Positions 49,957-64,000 of a stretch of 64,000 nucleotides of DNA are shown here, piece after piece. The position numbers and the translations under genes are program-made. The number at the start of each line of letters is the position of its first letter. Within the stretch, counting starts at the first letter, position 1. The stretch is from NCBI RefSeq assembly GCF_000315055.1, contig NZ_BAER01000017.1, positions 186,001 to 250,000 on the forward strand. Reading direction: 5' to 3'. The notes beneath the pieces were generated by a model. The model had not been told where the DNA came from. It searched no databases and worked only from the letters and a program-made list of their open reading frames with translations. This stretch comes from Paraglaciecola polaris LMG 21857. GTDB taxonomy: Bacteria; Pseudomonadota; Gammaproteobacteria; Enterobacterales; Alteromonadaceae.

Positions 49957-50023
49957 TTGACTGCACAGTTTCTGCGTTTTATTGACCTAAAGTGTTAACA
50001 AGCTCATAAACAAAGATAAACTC

Positions 50024-51043
50024 ATGAAACCTATTTCTCTCTATGCCCAAACTTTAACCATTTATTGCCTCGTATTATCACTGTTTGCTTGTGGTGGCAG
50101 TACAACCGATACCACCAGCACAGATACATCTGCAGAGCAAACCACTGACGACACAGTAACAGAGCCTGAGACAGACACCCTGGTAGAAAGCCTACAGTCC
50201 CCGTATTTTTTTGATGATGCGGTGATCGAAACCATCACCACCGAAAGTTGCACCTTATCAGGCGGCACACAAACCAATTGTTATCGCATTACAGTAGCAG
50301 GCGAACCAGTAGTTGATGAAATAGGTCCATTTTGCCCTTCTACGATTGATTCCGATGCGTCACAGGGCGGAATTTGGTTCGATGGTTCAGGTGAGGTATA
50401 TGACATAGACGGTGCATTCATCGCTAACCTAGACTCGTTATATGGTGATGGCTGGTTGCTGTACGATCCGAGCACAGGTAAAGTTAACATCACTGACAGC
50501 CAAGAGTCATGTGAAGCAGCGGCACGACCAAACGTTGATGTGGCCTATCAAAACTATTGCGTACAATGTGACTTAGACTATTACGGCGGTGGAATAAGCG
50601 AAACAGTGCTGATCCCTGTCACGCCCGTACCGCTGAGCAACCCCAATTACGTAAACGACAATATGGGTATTTCCCTCAACGGGGTGATTTTAGCTGCACA
50701 AGCGCCAGTTGACGCCATATTGAGTAATTACACCATTGCCGCATTTGACGATTGTGGTGGGCATATAAACCCATTTGACGGCTATCACTATCATGCCGCC
50801 ACGGGTTGCTCAACGGGCCCTGACGAAGAAGATGGTCACGCAAGTTTAATTGGCTACGCCCTAGACGGATACGATATCTACGCTATGTTAGATACATCGG
50901 GATATGAAGAAACAGATCTTGATGAATGTAGAGGACACAGCGATGACACCAGAGGCTATCACTACCATGTTGCCAGCCCAGGCGAAAACATGTTTATCGG
51001 TTGCTTCCACGGGGAGCAAGGTGAATGGTTGGGCACTGAATAA
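50024..51043 (+). CDS. YHYH-domain lipoprotein
   Basis: A 339-residue lipoprotein (lipobox LFAC, Cys23) with a Thr/Asp/Ser-rich linker (about 25-55). The rest is a YHYH domain: His-rich HINPFDGYHYHAATGC and RGYHYHVASPGENMFIGCFHGEQG, with paired Cys. Such proteins are predicted to be secreted, and the HxYHYH clusters suggest metal binding (copper, zinc or similar), but no function is established. It is followed 12 bases on by a small four-Cys secreted protein. Confidence 0.8.
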   Translation: MKPISLYAQTLTIYCLVLSLFACGGSTTDTTSTDTSAEQTTDDTVTEPETDTLVESLQSPYFFDDAVIETITTESCTLSGGTQTNCYRITVAGEPVVDEIGPFCPSTIDSDASQGGIWFDGSGEVYDIDGAFIANLDSLYGDGWLLYDPSTGKVNITDSQESCEAAARPNVDVAYQNYCVQCDLDYYGGGISETVLIPVTPVPLSNPNYVNDNMGISLNGVILAAQAPVDAILSNYTIAAFDDCGGHINPFDGYHYHAATGCSTGPDEEDGHASLIGYALDGYDIYAMLDTSGYEETDLDECRGHSDDTRGYHYHVASPGENMFIGCFHGEQGEWLGTE

Positions 51044-51055
51044 GGAAAATAAAAG

Positions 51056-51349
51056 ATGAATAGCACGCCATTGATTAACGACAAAAAGTACCTAATTCCA
51101 ATATTACTGGGCACGATCGCCAGCGCGTTTTTAAGTGTGAACGCAATAGCCCATGAGGGCCATGTAGATAAAGATGCGCAACTAGCATGTGAAAAAAAGG
51201 TGCTACGAGCATCGTGTCAATACATGAAAGAAACTGACCAGAACATAGCTAAAGTGTACAGCGGCTATTGTCAAAAAATATCTCACAATAAGATCTGCGT
51301 GCGCAATCAACCCATCAAAACGATTGTGCTTGAACCCCTAAGCAATTAA
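51056..51349 (+). CDS. Small secreted four-cysteine protein
   Basis: A 97-residue protein with a signal peptide (about 1-32, ending IAHE) and mature HEGHVDKD. Four Cys at 45, 54, 72 and 81, with the end motif CVRNQPI. AAGGAAAAT precedes the ATG. Very close behind the YHYH gene, so co-expressed; the HEGH start and the Cys pattern suggest a metal- or disulfide-stabilised exported partner. Function unknown. Confidence 0.75.
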   Translation: MNSTPLINDKKYLIPILLGTIASAFLSVNAIAHEGHVDKDAQLACEKKVLRASCQYMKETDQNIAKVYSGYCQKISHNKICVRNQPIKTIVLEPLSN

Positions 51350-51371
51350 CGATGCTTGTTTAGAGGAAAGT

Positions 51372-51402
51372 CAAAATGCCTCATCATAGACGAGGCATTT
51401 TG
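51372..51402. terminator. Bidirectional terminator between the YHYH operon and tpm
   Basis: An 11-bp perfect stem CAAAATGCCTC / GAGGCATTTTG with a 9-base loop, between convergent genes and T-rich at both outer ends. Confidence 0.8.
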
Positions 51403-51417
51403 CTGGACAGCCCGCTC

Positions 51418-52077
51418 TTATGTATTTTTTTGCAGCAGCCACACTTCCTCATTTGCCGCTATCTTACCTTTCAGCCCACCTTTGACGTCTTCGCTAGCCA
51501 GTAATGAAATGCGGTAGTTATCACCATAATGCTGAACAATTTCATCCCTGTTAACGCAATAAGGTGGCCCAGGTAAAAGATCTTGCTGATAGTCAAAACT
51601 GATCAGCAATTGAGGCGCGTTATCAGTCAAGTTGCGTATATGTCCGGTGTACTTTTCGCGCATCATCAACGGCAAAGCAACGAGGGCAGCCCTGTCGTAT
51701 ACGGCATCAATTTTTCCGATTAATGTTTCAGTTAAACGAAAAATATCACCCACATAAATATCAATCCTCAGCCCATTGGGATTGGCCTGATAATGGATTA
51801 AATCTGGCTCAACAAGGTGCATTACCTTAGGTTCGATTTCCATATCTGCAAATAACTGCACCACAGCGGCCTCGTGCAACTCTGCCGCCACCACATGATG
51901 ACCATTTGCCACCAACCAAGCTATATCACGGGTTTTCCCACAAAGGGGAACCAAAACTCGGCTTTGCACGGGTAATTGCAGCGCTGAAAAATGCGCTTTT
52001 AACAATGGACTGCCCTTAAATTGGTGAAACGCAATATCCCCTTGTTTCCATTTCTCATGCCAATAACTTGCTTGCAT
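51418..52077 (-). CDS. tpm: Thiopurine S-methyltransferase
   Basis: A 219-residue TPMT-family enzyme: YWHEKWKQGDIAFHQ near the start, LVPLCGKTRDIAWLVANGHHVVAAEL (SAM motif), VYDRAALVALPLMMREKY. Bacterial members methylate thiopurines, selenite or tellurite. The ATG at 52077 has GGAG upstream and gives the family's usual length; a frame opening 44 codons earlier is not used. Confidence 0.93.
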   Translation of the reverse strand: MQASYWHEKWKQGDIAFHQFKGSPLLKAHFSALQLPVQSRVLVPLCGKTRDIAWLVANGHHVVAAELHEAAVVQLFADMEIEPKVMHLVEPDLIHYQANPNGLRIDIYVGDIFRLTETLIGKIDAVYDRAALVALPLMMREKYTGHIRNLTDNAPQLLISFDYQQDLLPGPPYCVNRDEIVQHYGDNYRISLLASEDVKGGLKGKIAANEEVWLLQKNT

Positions 52078-52220
52078 ATCCACTCCATCATAAATGCTGG
52101 TCATTACACCATATGCCGATAATAAATTTTTATTCTGCCCTTTACCCTTGTTACGTCTACGCAATGTGACTAAACACCCACGGCCGAACAAAAGACCGTA
52201 CTGGTACATAATAACAAGAT

Positions 52221-52763
52221 TTACAGCATACCTTTTAACTTGGCGATACCATAAGCGTTCACAGTGGACGCATCTTGAATTTCACCCGATATAATCATGT
52301 TTTCAAAACTAGCCAGAGAGATTTTTTGGGTAATTAATCCCTCTTCCTCAGGATCGAGACTCATTTCGGTAAACGTCAGTTGTGTCGCAAAATAGATATG
52401 GTATTTCTGATTGCAAAACCCGTATGCCAAATACTGCTGTCCCAAATAGTGCATTTTATTCGCCACTAAACCCGTTTCTTCTTTTAATTCACCTGCCGCT
52501 AATAAAGCATGGTCTGCATCTGGATTTTGTTCCCATGCGCCTTGGGGTAACTCCCAACAACGTTTTTTGATGGGATAACGATACTGCTCAACCAAATGTA
52601 TATAGCCATCTTGCACGGGTAGAATCACCACAAAATCGGGTTTTTCCACTACCCCATAGATACCTTCACTACCACTGCTGCGACGGATTTTGTCTTCCTT
52701 TAGGCGCATCCACTTATTTTCATAAATGACGGTACTGGTTAATGTTTGTATTTCGTCACGCAT
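52221..52763 (-). CDS. NUDIX hydrolase (ADP-ribose pyrophosphatase-like)
   Basis: A 180-residue NUDIX protein. The box reads GAWEQNPDADHALLAAGELKEETGL; EExxG is intact, while the Arg of the consensus REUxEE is Gly, as in related ELPQG(S/A)WE...GELREETG proteins. The preceding KPDFVVILPVQDGYIHLVEQYRYP fits the NudF/ADP-ribose group. Hydrolyses a nucleoside-diphosphate derivative; exact substrate unknown. Upstream of tpm with a 143-base gap. Confidence 0.85.
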   Translation of the reverse strand: MRDEIQTLTSTVIYENKWMRLKEDKIRRSSGSEGIYGVVEKPDFVVILPVQDGYIHLVEQYRYPIKKRCWELPQGAWEQNPDADHALLAAGELKEETGLVANKMHYLGQQYLAYGFCNQKYHIYFATQLTFTEMSLDPEEEGLITQKISLASFENMIISGEIQDASTVNAYGIAKLKGML

Positions 52764-52911
52764 CTACTCACCTTAGCATTTGCTCATTCTCATGTTCACT
52801 CATAACGTGCGAGCTATATGCGCACCCATAGTTTTTATCTTATCGTAAACGCCTGCGTTTTTGTGTTGATGGCTAAAATTTGTTGAGGATTTATTGAGGG
52901 ATCTCATATTC

Positions 52912-52927
52912 ACTGCGTATACGTAGT
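52912..52927. promoter_or_regulatory. Near-palindrome upstream of the ECF sigma gene
   Basis: ACTGCGTATACGTAGT, an 8+8 palindrome with one mismatch, lies 28 bases before the sigma gene start. Two TTGAGG copies occur just before it (about 52880-52899). Either could be a regulator site; no metal-box consensus was matched. Confidence 0.35.
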
Positions 52928-52954
52928 AATATAAGGTAATTTAACGGATAAGGC

Positions 52955-53524
52955 GTGAAAGTAATTCACCTCAATCGGGCAAAAAAACAGACCTTGGCAG
53001 GTAATAAAAAATGTCAATTAGTCGAACAGTTATATGCTGAATACGGCAGTGCTCTGCGCCGTTTTATTCGCGTGCGCTCGCGATTAAATGAAGGGGATTG
53101 CGATGATGTTATGCAGGAAGTGTACGAACGCTTACTAAAGTTAGAAGGTTTACAGCAAAAACTAGCGGGTCGAATGGATACCGTCCGCAACTATCTCTTT
53201 CAGATTGCCAGCCATATTTTAATTGACCGGGATCGCAGAGCAAAAGTGCGCTGCAAAGACAACCATATCAGTGACCATGACACAGCGATTTTTTCTTCCA
53301 TCTTCTCGCCAGAACGCGCGTTGCAAAACCGCAAACAGTTAAGACAAATCGAGATGGCACTAGCAGAGATTAAAACCAGCCACAAACAGGCATTTATGTT
53401 AAACAGAATTGAAGGCATGAGTTACCGAGAAATCAGTGACTCATTAGGTGTATCAGTCAGTACAGTAGAAAAATACATATCTGCTGCTCTGGTTGTGATC
53501 AGAAGTAAGGTATCGCCAGAATGA
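52955..53524 (+). CDS. FecI-like ECF sigma factor
   Basis: A 189-residue sigma-70 ECF protein: region 2 (EQLYAEYGSALRRFIRVRSRL, DCDDVMQEVYERLLKLEG, VRNYLFQIASHILIDRDRR) and region 4 (FMLNRIEGMSYREISDSLGVSVSTVEKYISAAL). The start is GTG at 52955 with AAGG upstream. It overlaps the FecR gene by 4 bases. With FecR and the STN-type receptor it forms a cell-surface signalling cascade that should induce the TonB receptor when substrate is bound. Confidence 0.92.
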   Translation: MKVIHLNRAKKQTLAGNKKCQLVEQLYAEYGSALRRFIRVRSRLNEGDCDDVMQEVYERLLKLEGLQQKLAGRMDTVRNYLFQIASHILIDRDRRAKVRCKDNHISDHDTAIFSSIFSPERALQNRKQLRQIEMALAEIKTSHKQAFMLNRIEGMSYREISDSLGVSVSTVEKYISAALVVIRSKVSPE

Positions 53525-54513
53525 ATAATGAAGTGAACCAAGAATTGATTAGCCAGCAAGCTGCGAAATTCGTAGCTCGTTTATATTCAGGTGAATTAAG
53601 CCCAGAAGAAGAAAAGCAAATTTATGCCTGGTGTGAGCGACGCCCTGAACATCAACACGAATTTGATACCATGCTCGCTCTTTGGGACACTAGCGGTCAA
53701 TTGTATCAAACACCAAAATCGCCGCACAAATCCCCTCGCGGTTATTGGTTTATGGGAATGGCAGCAAGTTTTGTTTGTGCCCTGTTAGCAGTATGGTTTT
53801 TAGCCGTCCCTCAGCCAAATGCACTATATCAGCTAGCAAATGAACGACAGACTCAATATGAAACGGCCATCGGTGAAATCAGCACAGTTGGTTTGCCAGA
53901 TGGCAGTGCCGTCACCCTCAATACAGACAGCGCGATCAACATTGACTTTTCTGGTGTACAACGTCGTATTTGGTTAATCAGAGGCGAAGCTTTTTTTGAT
54001 GTGGCAAAAGATCCAACTCGTGTGTTCAGTATTAATACTGGCGAAAAAACCATTCGCGTCATAGGCACAAAGTTTAATGTACGTAAATCGGAGCAGACTC
54101 TAAAAGTATCGGTAACAGAAGGCTTGGTTGCGGTGCAGCCCTCAGCACGTCCCTCAGATGATCAAATTGAATTTGATAAAGCTGAAACCTTATTGGCAGC
54201 AGGCTCAATTGGTGCATTTAACGGCACCAGTGAAGTGATAGCAAAAGTCACTTCCAAAGAAGTGCTCGCTCATCAACAGTGGCGTCAGGGCGTTTTTCGT
54301 TTCGACAATGAACCCTTATCCAAAGTAATAACTGAGTTTAATCGCTATCGCCTGAAAAAAATCACCCTTCGCAACACAGATTTAGGCAAACTAAAAATAA
54401 GCGGCGTATTTAAATTAAAAGACGGTGATAGCATTTTATCTGCACTTGAAGCCGCACTGCCAGTAGAGGTCGAGCGCTATCCTAACTACATAGAATTGAC
54501 TGCTAAAAACTAA
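53521..54513 (+). CDS. FecR-family anti-sigma/sigma regulator
   Basis: A 330-residue protein: N-terminal cytoplasmic DUF4880 part (AAKFVARLYSGELSPEEEKQIYAWCERRPEHQHEF), one membrane helix (about 78-98), periplasmic FecR domain (VGLPDGSAVTLNTDSAINIDF; VAKDPTRVFSINTGEKTIRVIGTKFNVR) and a C-terminal STN-contacting part (PLSKVITEFNRYRLKKITL). It relays the receptor signal to the ECF sigma. Overlaps the sigma gene. Confidence 0.93.
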   Translation: MNNEVNQELISQQAAKFVARLYSGELSPEEEKQIYAWCERRPEHQHEFDTMLALWDTSGQLYQTPKSPHKSPRGYWFMGMAASFVCALLAVWFLAVPQPNALYQLANERQTQYETAIGEISTVGLPDGSAVTLNTDSAINIDFSGVQRRIWLIRGEAFFDVAKDPTRVFSINTGEKTIRVIGTKFNVRKSEQTLKVSVTEGLVAVQPSARPSDDQIEFDKAETLLAAGSIGAFNGTSEVIAKVTSKEVLAHQQWRQGVFRFDNEPLSKVITEFNRYRLKKITLRNTDLGKLKISGVFKLKDGDSILSALEAALPVEVERYPNYIELTAKN

Positions 54514-54598
54514 TTTCAATTTTTATGGAGGATCATTTTGTGCCTTGCGTATACCTCTAATAGGAACAGTCATTTCTAATAATAATAGAGGCACACAT

Positions 54599-57500
54599 AT
54601 GAAATCACGTCAGTCATTTACACTCAGCACGCTTGCGTGCAGCGTCATGTTAATGATGCACACAGGCCACAGTTTTGCCGCCCAAGACCGACCGCAAAAC
54701 ATTGATATTCCAGCGCAGAACATTGATTCCGCATTACTGGAACTGGCTGAAGAAAGCCAAACACAGATTTTGTTTTCTTCAGCTATTACGCCTGCCATAA
54801 CCACGCGTGAAATATCTGCCACGTTGACAGTGGAAGAAGCCTTGAACATTCTGCTAGAAAATACCTCGTTAGAATATATCAAGCGCTCCGCAAGCACCTT
54901 TGTCATACGTGAAAAGAACAGCGTATCTCAGGAGGTACCACAGGCAAAAGCAACAAATACCAGCAATGGTGCTGATGCTACGATAACTGCGACATCGGGC
55001 ACACAAACAAAAAAGGCTGACGGCGAAGCCAGTGTTGAGCGCATCCGCGTGGTTGGCTCAAATATCCGCGTCAACCAAGATTCTGGCGCATTACCCATTA
55101 CCACTTTCAGCGCCGAAGATTTTGAAGATTTGGGAATATCCAGCGGTGCTGATTTATTGGCTGAATTGCCCCAGCAAGGCGAAGTAAGCTTTAACAGCGA
55201 ACGTGTTGTCGGCGGTGTAAATGACGCACGAGGAGACGTTTCCTCAATCAATTTACGCGGTATCGGCACGGGCTATAGTTTAACCCTATTAAACGGTCGT
55301 CGCTTAGTACTTCATCCGGGGACCCAAGCTGAAGATCTTGTGCCCGTTACCACAGTTAACTCTAACGCTTTGCCCGTTCGCGGCCTGAAGCGGGTTGAAG
55401 TATTGCGCGACGGTGCTGCGGCGATTTACGGTACGGACGCCATTGCCGGTGTTATTAATTATGTCTTAAAAGATAAAAATACCGGTGGCGATTTACAGTT
55501 ACAATACGGCAAAAATGATGGCACTGATAAAGACACCATTAGCTTATCAGGCTCTGGCGGCTGGTTTTTTAACAACGAGCAAACCCATTTAACTTTAAGT
55601 GCCAGCCTTTACGAGCAAGATATGCTGATGGCATCTGAACGCGATTATGCCGCAAGCTCTGATACCCGTAATTTTCCGGGCCTGGAACCAGAATTTGTTG
55701 GCAATACGTCACTCGATGGACGCACCACATCTAGCCCTTGGGCTGAGCTTAGCTCTGACAGCTTAGGCACGTTTCATATTCAGCCTGACACGTTTGCCGG
55801 CTGCGAGGTGGCACTGGGTAATAACATTTGTGCCGATGGTGGCAGCTTAGATCGCGAGTTAAGATTTGATTCCAACTCAGAGCGCTCCCTAAGCTCCGAG
55901 GTGAGCCGAGTTAATCTATACGCACTGCTCACTCACAACCTAACCGATGAAGTCGAGTTATACGGTGAAGCGCTTTATTACCAAGCGGAAGCTGACCGTT
56001 TACGCGAACAAAGTGGAAATCTGACCGCGCAACGTTTTACCATATCCAGTGATGCATTTTATAATCCTTTTGGTGAAGACGTTACATTGCGCCGGTACCG
56101 CCCCATCGATACTGGGCCACGCAAAATTAACGTTGAAGATTATTCCTACCGATTCTTAACCGGCCTACGGGGTTACTTTCAAGACTGGGATTGGGATACC
56201 GCCCTGTTGTACTCAAAAGCCCACACCCTAGATTCCGCCAATCGCGTTAACAGCACGTTATTCCAGCAAGCGGTCAATAGCACAGATCAAAGTAGCGCTT
56301 ATGATATTTTTAACGGCGGTAGCTTAGACAATCCAAACATAGGTGATGCCACTGGCAATCCTCAAGATGTGATTGATAGCTTCATGTTCAATATTGAGCG
56401 TGAATCTGAAACCGAACTTGCGTTATATGACTTCAAAATATCCCGTCCTGATCTTTTCGCTCTACCAGCGGGCGATGTAGGCATGGCGGTGGGAATAGAA
56501 TACCGCTACGAAAGTTTTTCCGATGCCCGCAGCGATGCACTAAACGGCACCGACAATTTTATTGATGTTGTAACCGGACAGGAGTCAACGCTTGCCAGTA
56601 CCGTACTAGGCAGTAGCCCAACACCTGACTCATCAGGTAGTCGCAATGTATTTTCTACTTACCTAGAATTTGCTGTGCCACTGCTAGCCGATTTACCCGG
56701 TGTGCAAAGTCTGAATATGCAACTTGCTGCACGTTATGAGCGCTTCTCTGATGTCGGAGATATAACCAAACCAAAAATCTCATTGGCTTGGCAAGTAAAC
56801 GATATGGTTCAGCTACGGGCAGCCTATGCTGAAGGCTTTAAAGCGCCGGGGTTACCGCAAACTACCGCGGTCGATGTCTCACGCTCCAACACACGTTCAG
56901 ATCCAATTTCAGGGATTCGCCAAGGCACCCTAGAAATACGCAATGGCAGTGACGATTTAAAACCAGAAACCAGTACCAATACTTTCACCGGTATTGTATT
57001 CACACCTACGGCTAACTTAACGTTAACCGCGGACTGGTGGCACATTAAGCAAAAAGATGTGGTAGGTATTTTAAGTAGCCAGACCCAGATATTGTACGAT
57101 GCCCTACTTCGCGTCGATGGCAGTAGCAACGCCAACGTGATACGCGATGACAACAACGAAATATTGTATGTTACTAACGACTATACAAACTTATTGCCCC
57201 GTGAAATCAAAGGTATCGATTACAGCATTTTTTATAAACTAGATACTGAACTGGGTAAATTTACCTTTACCGCTAATGCAGCCAATCTGAAGCAATTTGA
57301 TCAAGGATTAGACACAGTCACTCAACGCGTGGTTGATGCCCAGGCAGCGGGCAATGAAGCGGTACTATTTAACGGTGAAGCAGTGGGTATTCCAGGTGCT
57401 GCCGGTGATTTATTGACTAAAAATGGTCGCCCAGAATGGCGCAGTAATATTGGCCTAAAATGGCAAAAAGACAATTGGGGAGCAGGTGTAAAATACAAAT

Positions 57501-57775
57501 ATATCAGTGAACTGGAAAACATCTTTTTGTCTTACTTTGATGAGAGTGACGATTTGGTTTATCAAAAAATTGATAACTGGTCGACCGTTGATGCCTACGT
57601 AAATTATTCATTTACCCAACAAAACAGCTGGTTGAATAAGACTAAAGTAACACTAGGAGCGCGAAATATTGGTGACAAAGAACCACCTTTCACCTCTGGT
57701 ACTTTTGGTTATGAAAGCAGCGTTCATTCTTCATCAGGACGTTATTTATACATGACGTTAAACAAAAAATTCTAG
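54599..57775 (+). CDS. TonB-dependent receptor with STN signalling domain
   Basis: A 1058-residue outer-membrane receptor. Signal peptide (about 1-28, SFAA), STN domain (about 32-105, IDIPAQNIDSALLELAEESQ) for contact with FecR, a Ser/Thr/Ala-rich linker, a plug domain (VERIRVVGSNIRVNQDSGALPITTF; INLRGIGTGYSLTLLNGRRL; GAAAIYGTDAIAGVINYVLK) and a barrel ending YLYMTLNKKF with a C-terminal Phe. The ATG at 54599 has GAGG upstream; an earlier in-frame start is not used. The plug style is that of large peptide/carbohydrate-type receptors rather than classic siderophore ones; the substrate is unknown. Confidence 0.93.
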   Translation: MKSRQSFTLSTLACSVMLMMHTGHSFAAQDRPQNIDIPAQNIDSALLELAEESQTQILFSSAITPAITTREISATLTVEEALNILLENTSLEYIKRSASTFVIREKNSVSQEVPQAKATNTSNGADATITATSGTQTKKADGEASVERIRVVGSNIRVNQDSGALPITTFSAEDFEDLGISSGADLLAELPQQGEVSFNSERVVGGVNDARGDVSSINLRGIGTGYSLTLLNGRRLVLHPGTQAEDLVPVTTVNSNALPVRGLKRVEVLRDGAAAIYGTDAIAGVINYVLKDKNTGGDLQLQYGKNDGTDKDTISLSGSGGWFFNNEQTHLTLSASLYEQDMLMASERDYAASSDTRNFPGLEPEFVGNTSLDGRTTSSPWAELSSDSLGTFHIQPDTFAGCEVALGNNICADGGSLDRELRFDSNSERSLSSEVSRVNLYALLTHNLTDEVELYGEALYYQAEADRLREQSGNLTAQRFTISSDAFYNPFGEDVTLRRYRPIDTGPRKINVEDYSYRFLTGLRGYFQDWDWDTALLYSKAHTLDSANRVNSTLFQQAVNSTDQSSAYDIFNGGSLDNPNIGDATGNPQDVIDSFMFNIERESETELALYDFKISRPDLFALPAGDVGMAVGIEYRYESFSDARSDALNGTDNFIDVVTGQESTLASTVLGSSPTPDSSGSRNVFSTYLEFAVPLLADLPGVQSLNMQLAARYERFSDVGDITKPKISLAWQVNDMVQLRAAYAEGFKAPGLPQTTAVDVSRSNTRSDPISGIRQGTLEIRNGSDDLKPETSTNTFTGIVFTPTANLTLTADWWHIKQKDVVGILSSQTQILYDALLRVDGSSNANVIRDDNNEILYVTNDYTNLLPREIKGIDYSIFYKLDTELGKFTFTANAANLKQFDQGLDTVTQRVVDAQAAGNEAVLFNGEAVGIPGAAGDLLTKNGRPEWRSNIGLKWQKDNWGAGVKYKYISELENIFLSYFDESDDLVYQKIDNWSTVDAYVNYSFTQQNSWLNKTKVTLGARNIGDKEPPFTSGTFGYESSVHSSSGRYLYMTLNKKF

Positions 57776-57781
57776 TCACCC

Positions 57782-57817
57782 AGCCAATCAGATCAACACG
57801 CTGATTGGCTTTTTTTC
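57782..57817 (+). terminator. Strong terminator between the receptor and the M14 peptidase
   Basis: A 10-bp perfect stem AGCCAATCAG / CTGATTGGCT with a 9-base loop and eight T. The next gene starts only 33 bases on, so the downstream enzymes depend on readthrough or on a promoter overlapping this hairpin. Confidence 0.9.
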
Positions 57818-57849
57818 TCGCAGACAAAAATAAACGGATCGCCTAACCT

Positions 57850-59016
57850 ATGCTTCGATATTTTATTCCCATACTATTTTTATTAACCGTTTCGCCCCTT
57901 AGCCATGCACAAGCCTGTAAATTTGACGATGTCACCTTCGACAGTGATTTCAGTGGCGCACGGTTGGATAGCTGTGAAAAACTAGCCAAACATCAATACC
58001 ATATCGGTATATTGCCGGAAAACGAGCCGGTAAACCCCAGTCCTTGGTTTAGTTTTAAGCTGCACTCTGAAGATGCAGCCAAGGTACAAATCAAATTAAC
58101 ATTCAACGGTAACAACCCGCGTTATTTACCCAAGCTCAGCACGGACGGGATACATTGGCAAAACATTGCCTTCGATACCAAAGGCCAAGCAATGTGGCTC
58201 AGTGTTAATACCAACACTAAACCCGTGTGGATATCCGCCCAGGAAATTATCGATAATCAAGAATACGATACTTGGTTAAATGCGTTACAAGCCCAACGTC
58301 CTGGAATATCTGTGGAAACATTGGGTCAGTCAGAAAAAGGCCGGCCGATTAAAGCGCTGGTTAAACAATCGGCACAAAATAAAGAATGGTTAGTGATCAT
58401 AGGCCGCCAACATCCACCGGAAGTAACCGGAGCCATGGCACTTTTCGCTTTTAGTGAATCGTTACTGCTAGATGACACACTAGGCGACCGATTTTTTAAC
58501 CGTTTCAATTTATTGTTAGTGCCTGATGTCAACCCTGACGGTGTCGAAACGGGCAACTGGCGACACAACGCCAATGGCGTGGATTTAAATCGTGACTGGA
58601 AAAACTTCGCTCAAGTGGAAACGCGTTTAGTAAGAGACAAAATGGCCAGCATAGTGGAAAACGGCGGCAAGATTGTATTTGCCATTGATTTTCATTCTAC
58701 TTTTCATGATGTATTTTACACCATGCCGCAGGAGCATGATTTAGCGCCAACTCCCCTGATGACAGATTGGTTAGCTGATCTAGAAGCTGAAACAAAATGG
58801 GTGTTCAAAACCGTTAATAAGTCCGCCTCATCGCCAGACAGAGGTATTTTCAAGCAATACATTGCAGATCATTACAAAGTACACGGCGTGACCTATGAAG
58901 TCGGCGATAACACCAATCGCCAGCTTATTCCTTATGTGGCCAAACAAGCCGCGAAGGCGCTAGTGGATAATCTATTAAAGGTAGAACCCGCGGCATTTTA
59001 TGTTACGCAAAAATAA
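57850..59016 (+). CDS. Secreted M14 zinc carboxypeptidase of the cytosolic-carboxypeptidase (CCP) type
   Basis: A 388-residue protein: signal peptide (1-20, LSHAQ), an N-terminal beta domain (about 25-130, FDSDFSGARLD...NPSPWFSFKL...RYLPKLSTDG) like the M14_N domain of CCP enzymes, then the M14 catalytic domain. Zinc ligands His188 and Glu191 (RQHPPE) and His282 (DFHSTFHD); substrate-binding Asn247-Arg248 (VDLNRDW); catalytic Glu350 (TYEVGDNTN). Eukaryotic CCPs remove glutamate from polyglutamylated proteins; the substrate of this bacterial form is unknown. Coupled to the M20 gene 13 bases downstream. Confidence 0.9.
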   Translation: MLRYFIPILFLLTVSPLSHAQACKFDDVTFDSDFSGARLDSCEKLAKHQYHIGILPENEPVNPSPWFSFKLHSEDAAKVQIKLTFNGNNPRYLPKLSTDGIHWQNIAFDTKGQAMWLSVNTNTKPVWISAQEIIDNQEYDTWLNALQAQRPGISVETLGQSEKGRPIKALVKQSAQNKEWLVIIGRQHPPEVTGAMALFAFSESLLLDDTLGDRFFNRFNLLLVPDVNPDGVETGNWRHNANGVDLNRDWKNFAQVETRLVRDKMASIVENGGKIVFAIDFHSTFHDVFYTMPQEHDLAPTPLMTDWLADLEAETKWVFKTVNKSASSPDRGIFKQYIADHYKVHGVTYEVGDNTNRQLIPYVAKQAAKALVDNLLKVEPAAFYVTQK

Positions 59017-59029
59017 CCGCATAGCAGCA

Positions 59030-60475
59030 ATGAAAACAACACTTTCATACACTTTGTTGGCGTTACTGGCGACGCTTTTCCTGCATTCAGGGGTCGCTAT
59101 CGCTGCGAAGCAGACCAGTGGGAGTTATGTTGCACAAGACGTAACACGCCATCAAGCCTTGAGTAATGAACTGGCGCAAAACTTGTGGGACTGGGCAGAA
59201 ACACGTTTTCATGAAAAGAAAAGCAGCCATGCTATGCAGGTGATACTGGCAGAGCAAGGCTTCAAGGTTGACGTGGGCGTTGCAGACATGCCCACTGCAT
59301 TTGTCGCTAGTTACGGCTCAAAGGACGGCCCCGTCATCGCCATACTGGCAGAAATGGATGCCCTACCCGGTTTATCGCAACAAGCACAGCCTTATAAACA
59401 ATCCATTGATGGCAAAGAAGCAGGGCACGCTTGTGGTCATCATTTGTTTGGCGCGGGCTCGTTAGCAGCGGCATTAACCGTCAAAAACTGGTTACAACAA
59501 AACAACATACAAGGTCAAATTCGACTCTATGGGACGCCTGCAGAAGAAGGCGGTTCAGGCAAGGTATACATGGTTCGCGAAGGACTCTTTAGTGACGTAG
59601 ACACGGTATTACATTGGCACCCTGGTGGACAAAACACCACCCAACCCATGTCAACCCTAGCCAATAAAACCGCTAAATTTCGTTTTCATGGCATTGCTTC
59701 TCATGCAGCCGCAGCCCCAGAGCAAGGTCGGTCAGCGTTAGATGCGGTTGAAGCAATGAATTACATGGTAAATATGATGCGCGAACACGTACCGGCTGAT
59801 ACACGTATTCATTATATTATTACCCATGGAGGCGATGCGCCAAACATAGTGCCTGAATTTGCCGAGGTCTATTATTATCTACGTACTCCTTCAGCGGCCG
59901 ATCTACCGGCATTATGGTCGAGACTAGAAAAAACGGCACAGGCCGCCGCTATGGGTACAGAAACCCAAGTAGACTGGGAGATAATGTCAGGCGTATGGAG
60001 CACCCTACCCAACGCCACCTTAGCGAAAGTCGCCCACGACGCAATGGACACATTTGGTGGTATTAAATATTCGCCCCAAGAGCAAGCGTTTGCAGATGTC
60101 TTGCGCACAACACTCAGTAAGAGAGCGGTAAAGCAAATCGGTAATGAACAAAACATTATGCCCTACACTGACGATATTTATCACTCCACGGCGTCAACCG
60201 ATGTAGGTGATATTAGTTGGAACGTGCCTACCGCAGGTTTTGTTACAGCAACTTGGGTGCCCGGTACAGCTCCTCACAGTTGGCAAGCTGTGGCTGCTGG
60301 CGGTATGAGTATTGGTTATAAAGGCATGCATTTGGCCAGTAAAACGTTAGCATTGAGCGCCATTCGTTTGTTTGAACAACCAGATTTAATCCAACAAGCA
60401 AAAACGGAATGGCGTGGGCGTGTGGGTGACGTGCAATACCAATCACAGATTGGTGATCGCTCTCCTATTTTGTAA
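59030..60475 (+). CDS. Secreted M20 amidohydrolase, AbgB-like
   Basis: A 481-residue M20 peptidase with a signal peptide (about 1-27, VAIAA). Metal ligands in GHACGHHLFGAG and the EEGGSGK stretch; RFHGIASHAAAAPEQGRSALDAVEAMNYMVNMM begins the dimerisation domain; late motifs STDVGDISWNVPTAGF and PHSWQ. It matches p-aminobenzoyl-glutamate hydrolase subunit B of E. coli almost throughout, but that enzyme is cytoplasmic and this one is exported. The ATG at 59030 follows the M14 stop; an ATG at 59000 overlapping that gene is an alternative, and neither has a good ribosome binding site. Confidence 0.9.
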   Translation: MKTTLSYTLLALLATLFLHSGVAIAAKQTSGSYVAQDVTRHQALSNELAQNLWDWAETRFHEKKSSHAMQVILAEQGFKVDVGVADMPTAFVASYGSKDGPVIAILAEMDALPGLSQQAQPYKQSIDGKEAGHACGHHLFGAGSLAAALTVKNWLQQNNIQGQIRLYGTPAEEGGSGKVYMVREGLFSDVDTVLHWHPGGQNTTQPMSTLANKTAKFRFHGIASHAAAAPEQGRSALDAVEAMNYMVNMMREHVPADTRIHYIITHGGDAPNIVPEFAEVYYYLRTPSAADLPALWSRLEKTAQAAAMGTETQVDWEIMSGVWSTLPNATLAKVAHDAMDTFGGIKYSPQEQAFADVLRTTLSKRAVKQIGNEQNIMPYTDDIYHSTASTDVGDISWNVPTAGFVTATWVPGTAPHSWQAVAAGGMSIGYKGMHLASKTLALSAIRLFEQPDLIQQAKTEWRGRVGDVQYQSQIGDRSPIL

Positions 60476-60665
60476 ATAGCAAAAACCTGTGCCTTATATT
60501 TGATTTAATAAGGTGCATAGGGTTTATCAAATGACAAAAGCCTTACCCTTTTGGCTTTAAGGTCAATAACGTTATGGATAACTATAGTTAACCTTATCCT
60601 GCACAATAAACTAAAACCGTGTTTAAACTGCGTTTTATTGCGCAACATAATCCTCCGGGGGAAGT

Positions 60666-61269
60666 ATGGAATTAGTTTATCCGACCTATGCCCATATCGA
60701 CCAGCTCATGACGTGGTTCAAAGATGAGGCCCAAGTGACTATCTGGTCTGGGCCTAATTTTAGATACCCGTTTGATTTCGCGTCGTTTAAATATGATCTT
60801 AAATTGCCCCCTTCACTCTTACTCATTGATAGCCGGAGCAAATACAGTATTAGCATTTGCTCAATATTACTTGCGCGAGGGGAAATGCCACTTAGGCCGT
60901 TTAGTCGTTAATCCAGCATTTCGCAGGCAAGGCCTTATCACAGAATTAATATGCCGGCTCTGCGAATTAGGTAAAGCTGAATTCGCGGTAGATACCTGCT
61001 CTTTGTTTGTCTTTACGTACAATACTTGGGCATTAAATGCCTACCAAAAGCTAGGATTTAAGGTTGCAGACTATCCTGAAGATATACCACTGGAAAACTG
61101 CGTATACATTATACATGGTGCAGTCAAGCGAGCGACGTCACAGCCATTAATAAGCGATAACAAAAATCTCAAAATAAAGACCACTCACCCGTCTGTGTAT
61201 GGCACTGACCATGTCATTATTCTTCATTCTATTGCTTGGTTTAAAGCCCAGCTCAACCATATAGCTTGA
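60666..61269 (+). pseudogene. GNAT acetyltransferase gene broken by a one-base frameshift
   Basis: The start at 60666 has GGGGGAAG upstream and reads MELVYPTYAHIDQLMTWF...FKYDLKLP. The frame then fails, but the next frame continues the fold (LHSYSLIAGANTVLAFAQYYLREGKCHLGRLVVNP, RRQGLITELI acetyl-CoA loop, ALNAYQKLGF). Dropping one C from the five-C run at 60807-60811 joins the frames smoothly. So this is an N-acetyltransferase with an extra base, either a real recent inactivation, a phase-variable run, or a sequencing error. After the GNAT domain ~50 residues of unrelated tail follow to 61269. Confidence 0.8.
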
Positions 61270-61293
61270 TGAATAAAGAAAATAACAGACCAT

Positions 61294-61315
61294 AAAAAGC
61301 CCTCCGTGGAGGGCT
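61294..61315 (-). terminator. Terminator after the GDSL hydrolase
   Basis: An 8-bp perfect stem AGCCCTCC / GGAGGGCT with loop GT, followed on the minus strand by five T. It ends the GDSL gene transcript. Confidence 0.8.
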
Positions 61316-61335
61316 AAACGCTAAGTCATACGCCT

Positions 61336-62244
61336 TCAGGCTAGGGTCTTACGTCTGACTCGCACCAATCCAGCTAATCCAATAGCAAATATGGCGAGAA
61401 CAGCGGGCTCTGATACATTTAGAGCTGCAAGTGCTGTCGCGGCTATAATTTCATGGCCGACTGCTGTTGGGTGAACGGCGTCCCACAATAAGTAATCATC
61501 AGGATTAGTACAGACGACGCCGCCACTAATACACGGCTGCGATACATTACTGAGTGCGTAATCACTTGGGTTAAGCGTTATGTCGAGAAACGTACTGAAC
61601 ATGTCAAGTTGGGTAATATTGAGTCCGTTGCCCAGTCCGTTTAAACCACTTGCCAAGGCCGAGTTAAAAGCCAATGCCCAAGGATCGGCAAGAGGAAGGT
61701 TAGGAATTAAAAAGTCCACGGCCCCTAAGGCTGATAGGTTTAAAATACTATCAATGATGTTATTCACCGCGTTCATTGGACTGTATGTGCCAAGGGGATT
61801 GTTCTGCAGAAAATCGTTACCTCCAGCCCAAATCACGTAAAGTCCATCGGCGTCAGCCATACCTCCGGTATTGTTCATGAAGAGAGGTATTTGTCCATCG
61901 AGAACCTGATCGCTTCTTTGCCCACCAATGGCATAGTTCGTGCCGCCTGCGAAAGCAGACGTTGCTGACAACCCTAAATCATCAGCCAACAACTCAACCC
62001 ACACTGGGCCATTAGAAAATCGGCAATCGAAATAAGGTGCAGGAGGGCAATTTGTCGGGGAAATATAGCTGAGTGCCCCAGGGTCTGAGAGTGAATCACC
62101 AAATATGTATAGGTTGCTGATGGGTGAAGCTGAGGCTGTCGCGCTGACAAGCAGCAGGAACGCCAAGGTTACAGAAAATGTCTGTTTGACTTTCTTGCAA
62201 AAAAGATTGGTTACGCTAGACACCGGAAGGGTTAGTGTTTTCAT
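61336..62244 (-). CDS. PEP-CTERM-anchored SGNH/GDSL hydrolase
   Basis: A 302-residue exported esterase/lipase-like protein. Signal peptide (about 1-40), block I FGDSLSD, the GGTNYAIGG region, block III GGNDF, and catalytic DAVHPT near the end. The C terminus is a PEP-CTERM sorting signal: VSEP, a hydrophobic helix (AVLAIFAIGLAGLVRV) and a basic RRK end, so it should be processed by an exosortase/EpsH system, usually in strains making exopolysaccharide. The ATG at 62244 has AAGGTGA 5 bases upstream. Confidence 0.9.
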   Translation of the reverse strand: MKTLTLPVSSVTNLFCKKVKQTFSVTLAFLLLVSATASASPISNLYIFGDSLSDPGALSYISPTNCPPAPYFDCRFSNGPVWVELLADDLGLSATSAFAGGTNYAIGGQRSDQVLDGQIPLFMNNTGGMADADGLYVIWAGGNDFLQNNPLGTYSPMNAVNNIIDSILNLSALGAVDFLIPNLPLADPWALAFNSALASGLNGLGNGLNITQLDMFSTFLDITLNPSDYALSNVSQPCISGGVVCTNPDDYLLWDAVHPTAVGHEIIAATALAALNVSEPAVLAIFAIGLAGLVRVRRKTLA

Positions 62245-62581
62245 TAAATCACCTTTGGACGATCGTAAACTCAACGACGCCATATAGAATGTATTATTGT
62301 CAGTATCCGGTTAAGGACACGCTTCAGCCAAGAATCCCCCAACAGCGAATAGACGGTTTCCATGCTAAAGAGGCTCTATGCATAATTCGATCCTCACCAA
62401 TAAAATCAATAATTTAGCTATCTTTTGGTTGAAATAAAGACGATGAGTGCAAAAAAAACTGACACACCTTATCCACTTTCACTGTGCGCATATCAGGCGT
62501 ATCGATCCCCCTATGTATTTTACGCTTAAATATGCCCAAGGTAGAGCCAATTAGGCTGTTGCAATCAATACAAATTCCACG
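62245..62581 (-). other. Non-coding region upstream of the GDSL gene
   Basis: About 337 bases between two minus-strand genes; it should hold the GDSL promoter. No clear -24/-12 (sigma-54) or -35/-10 pair, terminator, or known riboswitch core was found. Confidence 0.4.
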
Positions 62582-64000
62582 TTAATTTGCTTCAAGTGTT
62601 AACGCAACGCCGCTACTATCCGTTTGTAAGTGATGGCGGCTGTTGAGTAAAAACAAGCGATTAACCTCAACGTCTTGCACATTGGCCAAATAGGTTTTAA
62701 CGACTTTAGCTCGGTTATCAGCAAGTTTTGCCAACGCGCTAGGAGATATCTTAATAGCATTTCGGGTTTGGTTGTACATGGCGATAAGCAGTGCTTGATG
62801 AAGGTGATCGGGAGCAATGATCGTCTCAACATCCCCATGCTGAAGTTTGGCTTTGACTAACTGCCGCTCTTCATCAACCGTTTTATTAGTCGTGTTAGTA
62901 AACAGCAGGCCTAACGCTTCGCTTATTGGCCCGGCTAAAGGGACCGTACTGGCCGATAATTTCTCAGGGAGTGAATCTTGTCCCGTCAGTTCCCGTAATT
63001 GACTTTGTAGTTTTTGCTCAGCAAGTTCATAGGCATCCGCTACCTCGTTTACGGTTCCTTCAATATTAACCCGTAGGCCTGGGCGCTGTGCTAAGGCACC
63101 AGCTAATGTTGCTAATTTCTGCGACATGTCGTCGCTTAACTGAAACGAACCTGCAGCAAAGGTTATTTCATTGAGTTCATCATCGCTTCCTACCAAATTC
63201 GCCAGCAACGAAAAGGGAGCGCTAACCGCTTTGATAATTAAATTCTTAAGTGTTTGCAGTACGATTGAAGCAAAACCAAAACTGGGATTATCCAAATCCC
63301 CTGATACTTGCAAACCGAGGTCAATCACCCCATTTGAATCTTGTAATAGCGCGATAGCTAATCCTAAAGGCAAGCTTAAGGCTTGGTCTGAGTCTGTTTT
63401 TTTGCCCAGTGTAAGTTGATCAATAATAACGTGATTATCACCCGTCAATTGATTGTTTTCCAAGGTGTATTTAACATCTAATGAAAGCAAACCTTTGTCT
63501 ATAAAATGCCCCATATAGGTGCCTGAATAAGGGTTAACAGAGGTGAGCTCTGCACCACTAACCGAAAAGTTAAGATCCAGGAACATATCGTCAATAAGTG
63601 GATTTAACGAACCTTGCAGCGCCACAGGCGCATAGCCGTCTATTTTACCGTTTAAATCGACATTTGCTGCACTATCGGCGCGAGAAGATAGTGCCGTAAT
63701 GCTGCCGTTTAATGCTTCTATGCCTGAGGCAAAACGCGGTCGCAACGAGTTGTCGGCAAAATACGCACTGCCATCTACGACGCTCACCTCTTCAATTCGG
63801 ATAGCCATAGGCTCAGGGGTTGACTGAGCTGGCTGGATATTTTTGCCAGACGACGGATCATTTGCAGCAACAGCACTGTCGGCCGCTGGTTTGAGCAAAA
63901 TACTGTCGATATTAGTTTGCTTATTTTCATCAATAACAAGCTTCGCATAAGGCTTCTCTAATTCGACTTTTTGCACTGCCAGTGCGTTCTCATTCGAGTT
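62582..64000 (-). CDS. DUF748 (AsmA-like) protein, 5' end outside the window
   Basis: The C-terminal ~470 residues of a larger protein; the frame is open to the window edge. The edge part (VQKVELEKPYAKLVIDENKQTNIDSIL) and the middle (NGSITALSSRADSAANVDLNGKIDGYAPVALQGSLNPL; VNPYSGTYMGHFIDKGLLSLDVKYTLENNQLTG; GVIDLGLQVSGDLDNPSFGFASIV) are typical of DUF748, a repeat-rich family of envelope proteins related to AsmA. These are thought to bridge the periplasm in lipid transport; the role here is not proven. The C terminus has an OmpA-like feel (LSPSALAKLADNRAKVV), helping place it near the envelope. Confidence 0.88.
   Translation of the reverse strand, partial: NSNENALAVQKVELEKPYAKLVIDENKQTNIDSILLKPAADSAVAANDPSSGKNIQPAQSTPEPMAIRIEEVSVVDGSAYFADNSLRPRFASGIEALNGSITALSSRADSAANVDLNGKIDGYAPVALQGSLNPLIDDMFLDLNFSVSGAELTSVNPYSGTYMGHFIDKGLLSLDVKYTLENNQLTGDNHVIIDQLTLGKKTDSDQALSLPLGLAIALLQDSNGVIDLGLQVSGDLDNPSFGFASIVLQTLKNLIIKAVSAPFSLLANLVGSDDELNEITFAAGSFQLSDDMSQKLATLAGALAQRPGLRVNIEGTVNEVADAYELAEQKLQSQLRELTGQDSLPEKLSASTVPLAGPISEALGLLFTNTTNKTVDEERQLVKAKLQHGDVETIIAPDHLHQALLIAMYNQTRNAIKISPSALAKLADNRAKVVKTYLANVQDVEVNRLFLLNSRHHLQTDSSGVALTLEAN

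Follow-up and report, generated by a model that had tools for sequence, protein, structure and literature searches.

Within the 64,000 nt window analysed here (contig NZ_BAER01000017.1 of Paraglaciecola polaris LMG 21857), five open reading frames (ORFs) lie on the + strand at positions 52955–60475 and encode a sigma factor, a FecR-type protein, a TonB-dependent receptor, an M14 peptidase and an M20 hydrolase, which confirmed the gene set, common direction and short gaps described in an earlier sequence-only reading of this DNA. The first ORF (52955..53524, GTG start) encodes a FecI-like ECF sigma factor, which scored 76.4 bits against the sigma70-ECF model TIGR02937 (cut-off 42.9) and also matched Sigma70_r4_2. 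It shares 4 bases (gap of −4) with the gene for a FecR-type anti-sigma/regulator (53521..54513), which scored 83.4 bits against PF04773, has DUF4880 and FecR_C domains above cut-off, and contains one hydrophobic segment as judged by eye; an ECF sigma factor followed by a FecR-domain protein is the order found in FecIR-type cell-surface signalling. The receptor gene (54599..57775, ATG start, with an alternative TTG start at 54545) follows after 85 bases, and the M14 gene (57850..59016) after a further 74 bases, with 13 bases between it and the ATG of the M20 gene (59030..60475), for which an alternative ATG at position 59000 overlaps the M14 gene. No RNA element reached the Rfam gathering score in the region 50000–64000. 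A scan for promoter-like sites (9 versus 14.8 expected) and terminator-like sites (15 versus 9.0 expected, sd 3.0; the three on the + strand all within genes) carried no weight in any of our conclusions.

The receptor has a barrel (PF00593, 108.8 bits) and a plug domain (PF07715, 53.3 bits), both above cut-off, preceded by an STN-like extension in which the N-terminal STN match (approximately residues 56–105) is in the expected place, but its 21.6 bits are below the Pfam cut-off of 28.4. In the signalling cascade previously proposed for the first three genes, the sigma factor and FecR are thus well supported, while the STN domain is a putative one. The arrangement resembles the FecI-FecR-FecA system for ferric citrate in combining an ECF sigma factor, FecR and an STN-like-extended receptor in one operon, but all proteins score below the Fec equivalog cut-offs, exported peptidases come after the receptor, and relatives of the operon have a homologous receptor without the extension, adjoining a LysR gene.

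Exported M14 and M20 enzymes

The M14 metallocarboxypeptidase is predicted to be exported and scored 73.9 bits against Peptidase_M14 (PF00246). Its best solved relatives are the bacterial chains 4a37, 3l2n, 4b6z and 3k2k, followed by entries named cytosolic carboxypeptidase-like protein 5, with the sequence alignment to 4a37 and 3l2n starting at profile positions 24 and 18, respectively, and these relatives bear out its assignment as a CCP-type enzyme, related at the sequence level to solved CCPs that have an N-terminal beta domain. Enzymes of the CCP type trim glutamates in eukaryotes. From M14 motifs we take H188, E191 and H282 to be the zinc ligands, E350 the catalytic residue and R238/N247/R248 the carboxylate site; the zinc ligands, catalytic Glu and carboxylate-binding N-R are unchanged in 101/101 homologues, and C23 and C42 are invariant in an alignment of 31 M14 sequences (alignment A1). 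The putative P1′ specificity position, K335, is Lys in 97 of the 101 sequences, Thr in the canonical CCP of P. polaris and Gly in E. coli MpaA, which argues for acidic side chains at P1′ as far as the sequence can indicate. Cleavage next to a D residue would be unusual for an M14 enzyme. With 24.6 bits against the NCBIfam MpaA model (cut-off 157), and the Gly/Lys difference, the M14 enzyme is not assigned to the MpaA murein tripeptide amidases.

The M20 amidohydrolase, also predicted to be exported, scored 258.4 bits against TIGR01891 (cut-off 154), and its description as AbgB-like holds, as it is 42% identical to E. coli AbgB over 451 residues, and 29–30% identical to E. coli AbgA over 244 residues. 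AbgB in E. coli splits p-aminobenzoyl-glutamate (pABA-glutamate) from folate breakdown, and by analogy the M20 enzyme may be an N-acyl-glutamate amidase. Apart from this AbgB likeness, the system differs from E. coli abgABT in having one exported M20, as the operon contains neither a second M20 (AbgA partner) nor an inner-membrane transporter (AbgT). An AbgT homologue is encoded on another contig of the P. polaris genome, which keeps pABA-glutamate among the possible substrates of the M20 enzyme.

Conservation of the operon and its parts

The five genes were found in the same order in 5 of the 22 genomes of the genus (including that of P. polaris), indicating that the arrangement is more than chance, but they do not form one fixed unit. 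The M20 gene was present in 6/8 genus members carrying the close M14 and absent from two species (G007 and G008), and outside the genus its place is taken by a D-aminoacylase-type amidohydrolase (DAH), a gamma-glutamyltransferase (GGT) or no third enzyme, although one genome of another genus (G022) has a 55–57% identical M20 in the same neighbourhood, together with GGT. An M14/M20 pair without the receptor, an arrangement which the sequence-only reading counted against itself, does literally occur in one species (G012), after a 4.46 kb deletion that removed the sigma factor, FecR and receptor genes, but this looks like a secondary loss. The core is the receptor-M14 pair, with M20 mostly a local addition: among the 118 genomes searched (own included), receptor and M14 occur together in 26 of the 28 M14-bearing genomes, whereas the receptor is present in 3/90 genomes without M14 (G025, where M14 is split over two matches, was counted as negative). 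A 69% identical M20 accompanies unrelated receptors in G035, without M14. M14 without a recognised receptor was seen in 10/10 loci from Planctomycetota and Verrucomicrobiota. The neighbours of receptor-less M14 genes, inspected by eye, gave no clue.

Modular composition of related loci

We collected 110 receptor/M14 loci (30 from relatives and 80 from a wider contig search), which gave 100 distinct loci after removal of nine duplicates with identical M14 and of L054, which overlaps L051. As the 80 were the best of at least 520 candidates, the locus percentages do not estimate frequencies in a population. To label third genes, regulators and catabolic genes, a single reference for each was compared by BLAST with mechanically called ORFs of at least 90 aa within approximately 10 kb, some named contigs being shorter than this.

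Homologous receptor-M14 pairs in other marine Proteobacteria occur in LysR-linked loci, many of their neighbours being related to glutamate. The D-glutamate genes dgcN-dgcA (scored by dgcN) were found in 22/100 listed loci and a LysA-like PLP enzyme in 11/100, never together; likewise the glutamate symporter GltS (18/100) and an NhaC-like antiporter (11/100) never co-occur. DAH was found in 47/100 loci, and twice as a fusion with M14 (L107 and L117), GGT in five (four of them without DAH), and a linked PGA_cap protein (PF09587) in 24; a glutamate-dehydrogenase-like protein was also among the linked neighbours. Of these associations, those with dgcN-dgcA, the glutamate symporters, GGT and the glutamate-dehydrogenase-like protein support the earlier suggestion of a glutamate-bearing compound. 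The LysA-like enzyme lacks the glutamate of the CE(T)GD motif of LysA, and a LysA above cut-off is encoded elsewhere in all eight genomes searched, seven of which have the LysA-like cassette.

The receptor is 51–63% identical, from approximately residue 110–140 onward, to the receptors of loci that carry LysR and dgcN in eight relatives, and 33–58% identical to those of named dgcN loci; the receptors of both groups lack the STN-like extension. This extension accompanies full-length FecR and is absent from LysR loci, with 152–206 residues ahead of the plug in 14 full-length-FecR loci versus 41–88 in 30 LysR loci (omitting L118, where the receptor ORF is incomplete). The control label, ECF/FecR or LysR, switches at least five times on the M14 tree. 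Sigma factors 51–59% identical to that of P. polaris precede the receptor-M14 pair in Pseudidiomarina, Rheinheimera and G030, and neither dgcN nor LysR nor PGA_cap was found in any of the 14 sigma-FecR loci within approximately 10 kb at the scores used. In one bridging locus (L166), sigma-FecR-receptor-M14-DAH is accompanied by a DctA-like carrier and by a 221-aa ORF that resembles D-amino-acid dehydrogenases.

In P. polaris itself, DgcN (492 bits, cut-off 480) and DgcA (435 bits, cut-off 400) are encoded with a LysR gene on the same contig, 27 kb from M14, and DgcN is present in 7/8 genus members with the close M14, the exception being G019, which has the operon. DgcN and the operon can be far apart (1.56 Mb in G006), and over the 118 genomes DgcN occurs without M14 in eight and M14 without DgcN in 11. 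PF09587 was matched in 20 genomes, 11 of them with a form of approximately 700 aa, which coincides with M14 in 10/11 genomes and lies within 16 kb of it in seven; as seven control genomes, E. coli among them, also matched, the PGA_cap name is no proof of gamma-PGA. Fisher tests, which ignore shared ancestry, gave p = 1e-20 for receptor/M14, 7e-8 for M14/DgcN and 1e-6 for M14/PGA_cap, the last counting the ~700 aa form only and thus leaving out 9 of the 20 PF09587 genomes. The P. polaris genome lacks the PGA_cap protein, a DAH at E 1e-60 and GltS, and the known gamma-PGA hydrolase family PF05908 exceeded its cut-off in 0/118 genomes.

A proposed role in scavenging of glutamate oligomers

The operon seems to serve the sensing, import and cutting of an external compound. 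In related genomes the receptor and M14 enzyme are linked to D-glutamate breakdown, so that chains containing D-glutamate are a more probable food than folates. Our best explanation, which we put a little short of an even chance, is that oligomers containing D-glutamate, with poly-gamma-glutamate the likeliest, are taken up through the TonB-dependent receptor and broken down in the periplasm. Gene content, linkage, domains, conservation and the swapping of modules are observed, whereas the substrate, the direction of flow, the signalling and every enzyme activity are inferred. The receptor would bind an external, gamma-linked oligomer composed of D residues or of both D and L residues and would use energy from TonB to move it inward to the periplasm. 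Ligand binding would be relayed by the STN domain to FecR, which would release the ECF sigma factor and so turn on expression of the receptor operon. M14 would then take acidic residues off the C-terminal end, and M20 may cut the remaining N-acyl- or gamma-glutamyl-glutamate amide, as DAH or GGT would do in relatives. The D-glutamate released would cross the inner membrane, be acetylated by DgcN and be converted by DgcA to N-acetyl-L-glutamate, for use as L-glutamate. A marine source of D/L gamma-glutamate is given by cnidarian nematocysts (PMC7070617). Evidence against this reading comes from the genes missing in P. polaris (PGA_cap, DAH and GltS), the lack of dgcN, LysR and PGA_cap near the sigma-FecR genes, the genomes that have DgcN or M14 alone, the absence of PF05908 hydrolases, the receptor-less M14 loci and the unusual D residues at the cleavage site.

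The main rival is scavenging of murein peptides, which we consider unlikely: the receptor would import stem peptides (L-Ala-gamma-D-Glu-mDAP), M14 would act like MpaA in separating gamma-D-Glu from mDAP, and L-Ala would be split from D-Glu by DAH or M20 to feed DgcN-DgcA. D-Glu is available in abundance from peptidoglycan. Pseudoalteromonas CF6-2 grows on peptidoglycan with no other source of carbon or nitrogen, and can use D-Glu as nitrogen source (PMC6962226). The E. coli murein tripeptide locus (mpaA, ycjG, mppA) likewise joins an M14 enzyme to a relative of enolase-type D-Glu epimerases, with mpaA adjoining the L-Ala-D/L-Glu epimerase gene ycjG, and P. polaris DgcA is 49% identical to YcjG and narrowly passes the YcjG model (345.9 versus 343). 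However, the present M14 is exported, of CCP type and distinct from MpaA in both score and K335, GGT suits gamma-glutamyl chains better, and the LysA-like enzyme lacks the CE(T)GD glutamate, with a LysA above cut-off encoded elsewhere. Among neighbours without a label, 18 clusters recurred in at least 3 of the 81 receptor loci; judged by eye, with one checked by profile, none resembled mDAP, alanine or amino-sugar genes.

Slightly less probable is that the D-glutamate genes mislead for this genus, and that the operon takes up peptides rich in glutamate or N-acyl- or aroyl-L-glutamate conjugates, including those from folate, the AbgB-like M20 being the key enzyme. The similarity to AbgB, the AbgT homologue, and the M20 found with unrelated receptors in G035 would fit this, but the receptor and M14 are closely homologous to those of D-Glu loci, DgcN is present in 7/8 genus members with the close M14, and M20 is absent in 2/8. 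For folate in particular, we found no support beyond the AbgB similarity: the linked catabolic genes are those for D-glutamate, and no folate gene was among the neighbour families identified. The earlier proposal of an import system for a glutamylated or folate-derived compound is partly supported: the evidence favours a receptor whose accompanying exported enzymes would act on some compound that carries glutamate, and gives no support to a folate origin. Receptor-peptidase pairs are common and the M14 and M20 families broad, so general peptide scavenging without a special role for glutamate could also be considered, but this is improbable given the recurrent glutamate-related neighbours (DgcN, DgcA, GltS, GGT and the glutamate-dehydrogenase-like protein) and a K335 that argues for acidic side chains.

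Extending poly-gamma-glutamate feeding to the relatives, we tentatively propose, at somewhat less than even confidence, that marine Alteromonadales and some Alphaproteobacteria share a dedicated TonB-dependent system, built from interchangeable modules, for taking up poly-gamma-glutamate or oligomers of D-glutamate of another kind. Control may be by ECF/FecR with STN or by LysR, the amide step by DAH, GGT or an AbgB-like M20, import by GltS or an NhaC-like protein, and D-glutamate may be converted by DgcN-DgcA or the LysA-like PLP enzyme.

The intracellular D-glutamate catabolic pathway DgcN-DgcA was described in 2023 (doi 10.1038/s41396-023-01364-6, as cited in PMC12363236 and PMC10845958), and the P. 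polaris genes resemble it in scoring above the curated cut-offs with a LysR gene alongside, but here the pathway is linked to a receptor of the outer membrane and to exported enzymes that would cut amides; TonB is mentioned in neither main text of the two citing papers. We found no description of the receptor-M14-dgcN link in the literature searched by title and start of abstract, although the original dgcN study may mention it, and no outer-membrane route for bound D-glutamate in the same literature. D-amino acids are components of recalcitrant organic matter in the deep sea (PMC12363236). The operon and its relatives would provide the missing outer-membrane step for bound D-glutamate. They also offer a natural case in which homologous receptors are controlled in two ways, by ECF/FecR where the STN extension is present and by LysR where it is absent, and the LysA-like protein is a candidate new D-glutamate-converting PLP enzyme.

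Organisation of the operon and predicted export of its enzymes

Five rightward genes at 52955–60475 of the window encode an ECF sigma factor, a FecR protein, a TonB-dependent receptor extended N-terminally by an STN-like region, a CCP-type M14 carboxypeptidase and an M20 amidohydrolase, separated in gene order by −4, 85 and 74 bases, with a further 13 bases up to the M20 ATG at 59030. The operon is real and conserved, and the sequence-only reading described it correctly. The NUDIX- and TPMT-like genes upstream (names by eye, minus strand) and the GNAT-domain gene downstream are not part of the cassette, and have the same position in 6/7 other genus members with a close M14, the exception being G019 (locus L038). 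The M14, the M20 and the D-aminoacylase-type amidohydrolase (DAH) found in relatives are probably exported, since both operon enzymes have a hydrophobic N-terminus, as do 95/97 M14, 48/49 DAH and 8/10 M20 homologues, and a simple rule recognised lipobox-like motifs in 36/97 M14 and 42/49 DAH. On the same contig outside the window, about 11 kb past M20, a RimK gene (over the cut-off of the 30S S6 glutamate ligase model) adjoins an AstE/AspA-type zinc enzyme (L068:13036–14987, minus strand).

The receptor and M14 form the core of the cassette

Within the genus, M14 was present at 79–100% identity in 8/22 genomes (own included), and all five genes are kept in G000, G002, G006, G015 and G019. Genome-wide searches (E 1e-60) found no M20 in G007 and G008, and blastn showed that G012 keeps M14-M20 but has lost ~4.46 kb: the sequences matching window positions 53160 and 57617 are contiguous there, so that the sigma gene is cut short at its end and FecR and almost all of the receptor are gone. 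Other versions are found in G021 (LysR type) and in G016, G017 and G018 (DASS type). Outside the operon, a 69% identical M20 lies in G035 near an unrelated sigma/FecR pair and two other receptors, without M14, while in G022 a 55–57% identical M20 lies ~9 kb from M14, past a second receptor and a gamma-glutamyltransferase (GGT). Across 118 genomes (M14 ≥218 bits, receptor E ≤1e-100), both were detected in 26, M14 alone in 2, receptor alone in 3 and neither in 87. Taken together, these patterns show that the core is receptor plus M14, and that M20 is a travelling third enzyme.

Receptor-M14 loci in relatives are linked to D-glutamate genes

We inspected ~20 kb around the loci of 30 relatives and up to ~21 kb around 80 named loci (the best 80 of 520 candidates), giving 100 distinct loci after removal of duplicates. 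In the typical locus (Colwellia, Thalassotalea, Pseudoalteromonas and others), receptor-M14-DAH occupy one strand, and the opposite strand carries LysR, DgcN and DgcA together with GltS or an NhaC-like antiporter; the L044 DgcN scored 491.5 against the curated cut-off of 480 (NF041892). DAH is an Amidohydro_3 protein, with as best NCBIfam model PRK09061 (below cut-off), which we take to be the 'D-glutamate deacylase' model. M14 and DAH are fused in one ORF in two Psychrobiaceae MAGs (L107:10004–12643, 880 aa; L117:1–2481), which suggests that they act together. GGT is present in L059, L061, L119, L121 and L148 (L119 also has DAH), and both GGT tested were over the TIGR00066 cut-off. In L167, a D-amino-acid-dehydrogenase-like gene (346 bits, not reaching the cut-off of 383) lies between receptor and M14. 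A glutamate-dehydrogenase-like protein, named by eye and without NCBIfam match at 1e-20, has homologues in 8 loci. The commonest unlabelled non-regulatory family is a ~700-aa protein with a PGA_cap domain (176 bits), within 9 kb in 11/81 receptor loci; direct search found it in 24/100 loci, 22 of these among the 33 with dgcN or a LysA-like gene. One example, L115:15271–17448 (~700 aa), has an N-terminal signal-like stretch by eye.

The window's genome itself carries LysR-DgcN-DgcA outside the window (contig C130, ~268.4–273.2 kb), with DgcA over the NF042940 cut-off and DgcN 27 kb away from M14, as measured between gene starts. Four genus members with a close M14 have the two genes 20–27 kb apart; in G006 the interval is 1.56 Mb, and in two more the genes are on different contigs; no DgcN was found in the genome of G019, which has the operon. 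A second exported M20 adjoins DgcN-DgcA on the opposite strand (L077:6443–7762, minus strand), in the same place in seven genus members. Genome-wide searches of the window's genome found no DAH (at E 1e-60), GltS or PGA_cap.

Two further arrangements were observed. In L195 and L196 (genomes G012 and G015), a paralogous cassette has LysR-NhaC divergent from receptor (40%)-DAH (47%)-883-aa protein, the last being an M14 of another type. A second receptor-M14 type (L047, L056, L057, L064–L066, L099, L111 and L113) holds sigma, a short FecR-like ORF, a receptor (mostly 33–34%) lacking an STN-like extension where measured, a DASS symporter and a DUF4886 protein.

Exchange of regulators and catabolic enzymes

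At the scores used, FecR was found in 14 and LysR in 33 of the 100 loci, never both. Receptors have 152–206 residues before the plug in 14 full-length-FecR loci, versus 41–88 in 30 LysR loci, and the extension is missing in L065 and L066, where the FecR-like ORF is short. A quick M14 tree, with SH-aLRT support only, needs at least five starred switches from one of the two labels, sigma or LysR, to the other.

DgcN (22 loci) and a LysA-like fold-III PLP enzyme (11 loci) likewise never shared one of the 100 loci. The latter is encoded at L118:1032–2306 (minus strand) and in L048, L060, L107, L112, L115, L117, L119, L124, L125 and L129; the close M14 relatives L118, L122 and L129 differ over DgcN or LysA-like. 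DgcN was missing from 9/9 named LysA-like genomes searched (completeness not stated) and, among relatives, from G024, with the exception of G073, where it is on another contig. The LysA-like proteins tested score under the LysA cut-off and have Phe at the Glu of the LysA C-E-(T)-G-D motif (7 versus 8 sequences), and LysA itself was over cut-off in 8/8 genomes searched, 7 of which also have the LysA-like gene. The enzyme may racemise or decarboxylate D-glutamate, and is a candidate new D-glutamate-converting enzyme.

The probable substrate

The catalytic residues of M14 are invariant (101/101), and K335 is present in 97/101, 15 residues before E350. In carboxypeptidase A the same spacing separates Glu270 from residue 255, which sets the P1' preference. 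The K335 position is Thr in the genome's own canonical CCP and Gly in E. coli MpaA. This pattern suggests that M14 prefers an acidic residue and speaks against mDAP as its target, without settling the matter because mDAP too carries a distal carboxylate.

Of the glutamylated or folate-derived compound proposed earlier, the glutamate-bearing part is supported and the folate-derived part is not: the substrate is most likely D-glutamate-bearing. Bound D-glutamate is found mainly in peptidoglycan and poly-gamma-glutamate. Murein peptides are an unlikely though credible source, as no mDAP, alanine or amino-sugar genes were seen by eye among 18 recurrent unlabelled clusters, one of them checked by profile. 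L-glutamate conjugates are slightly less likely again. General peptide scavenging, the other earlier suggestion, appears improbable, the recurrent linked genes with a nameable function being ones that handle glutamate. The linked GGT and PGA_cap genes are an indication of gamma-glutamyl chains, but the window's own locus has neither, the PGA_cap model PF09587 is unspecific (matching 7/14 control genomes) and none of the 118 genomes searched has a member of the known PGA hydrolase family (PF05908) over cut-off. Weighing these points together against the rivals, we tentatively favour poly-gamma-glutamate or similar oligomers, at somewhat short of an even chance. Passages of one study describe poly-gamma-glutamates of 10–50 residues and cyclic D/L forms in cnidarian nematocysts (PMC7070617), and soil bacteria using poly-gamma-D-glutamate were reported in Genome Announc 2013 (PMC3569354).

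The titles and abstract openings returned by literature searches do not describe a receptor-M14 link to D-glutamate; TonB is mentioned 0 times in the main texts of an mSystems 2025 and a Microbiology Spectrum 2024 paper, and passages of a Nat Commun 2020 paper deal with Pseudoalteromonas CF6-2. The operon would extend the range of TonB-dependent scavenging systems and fill an interesting role as a missing link.
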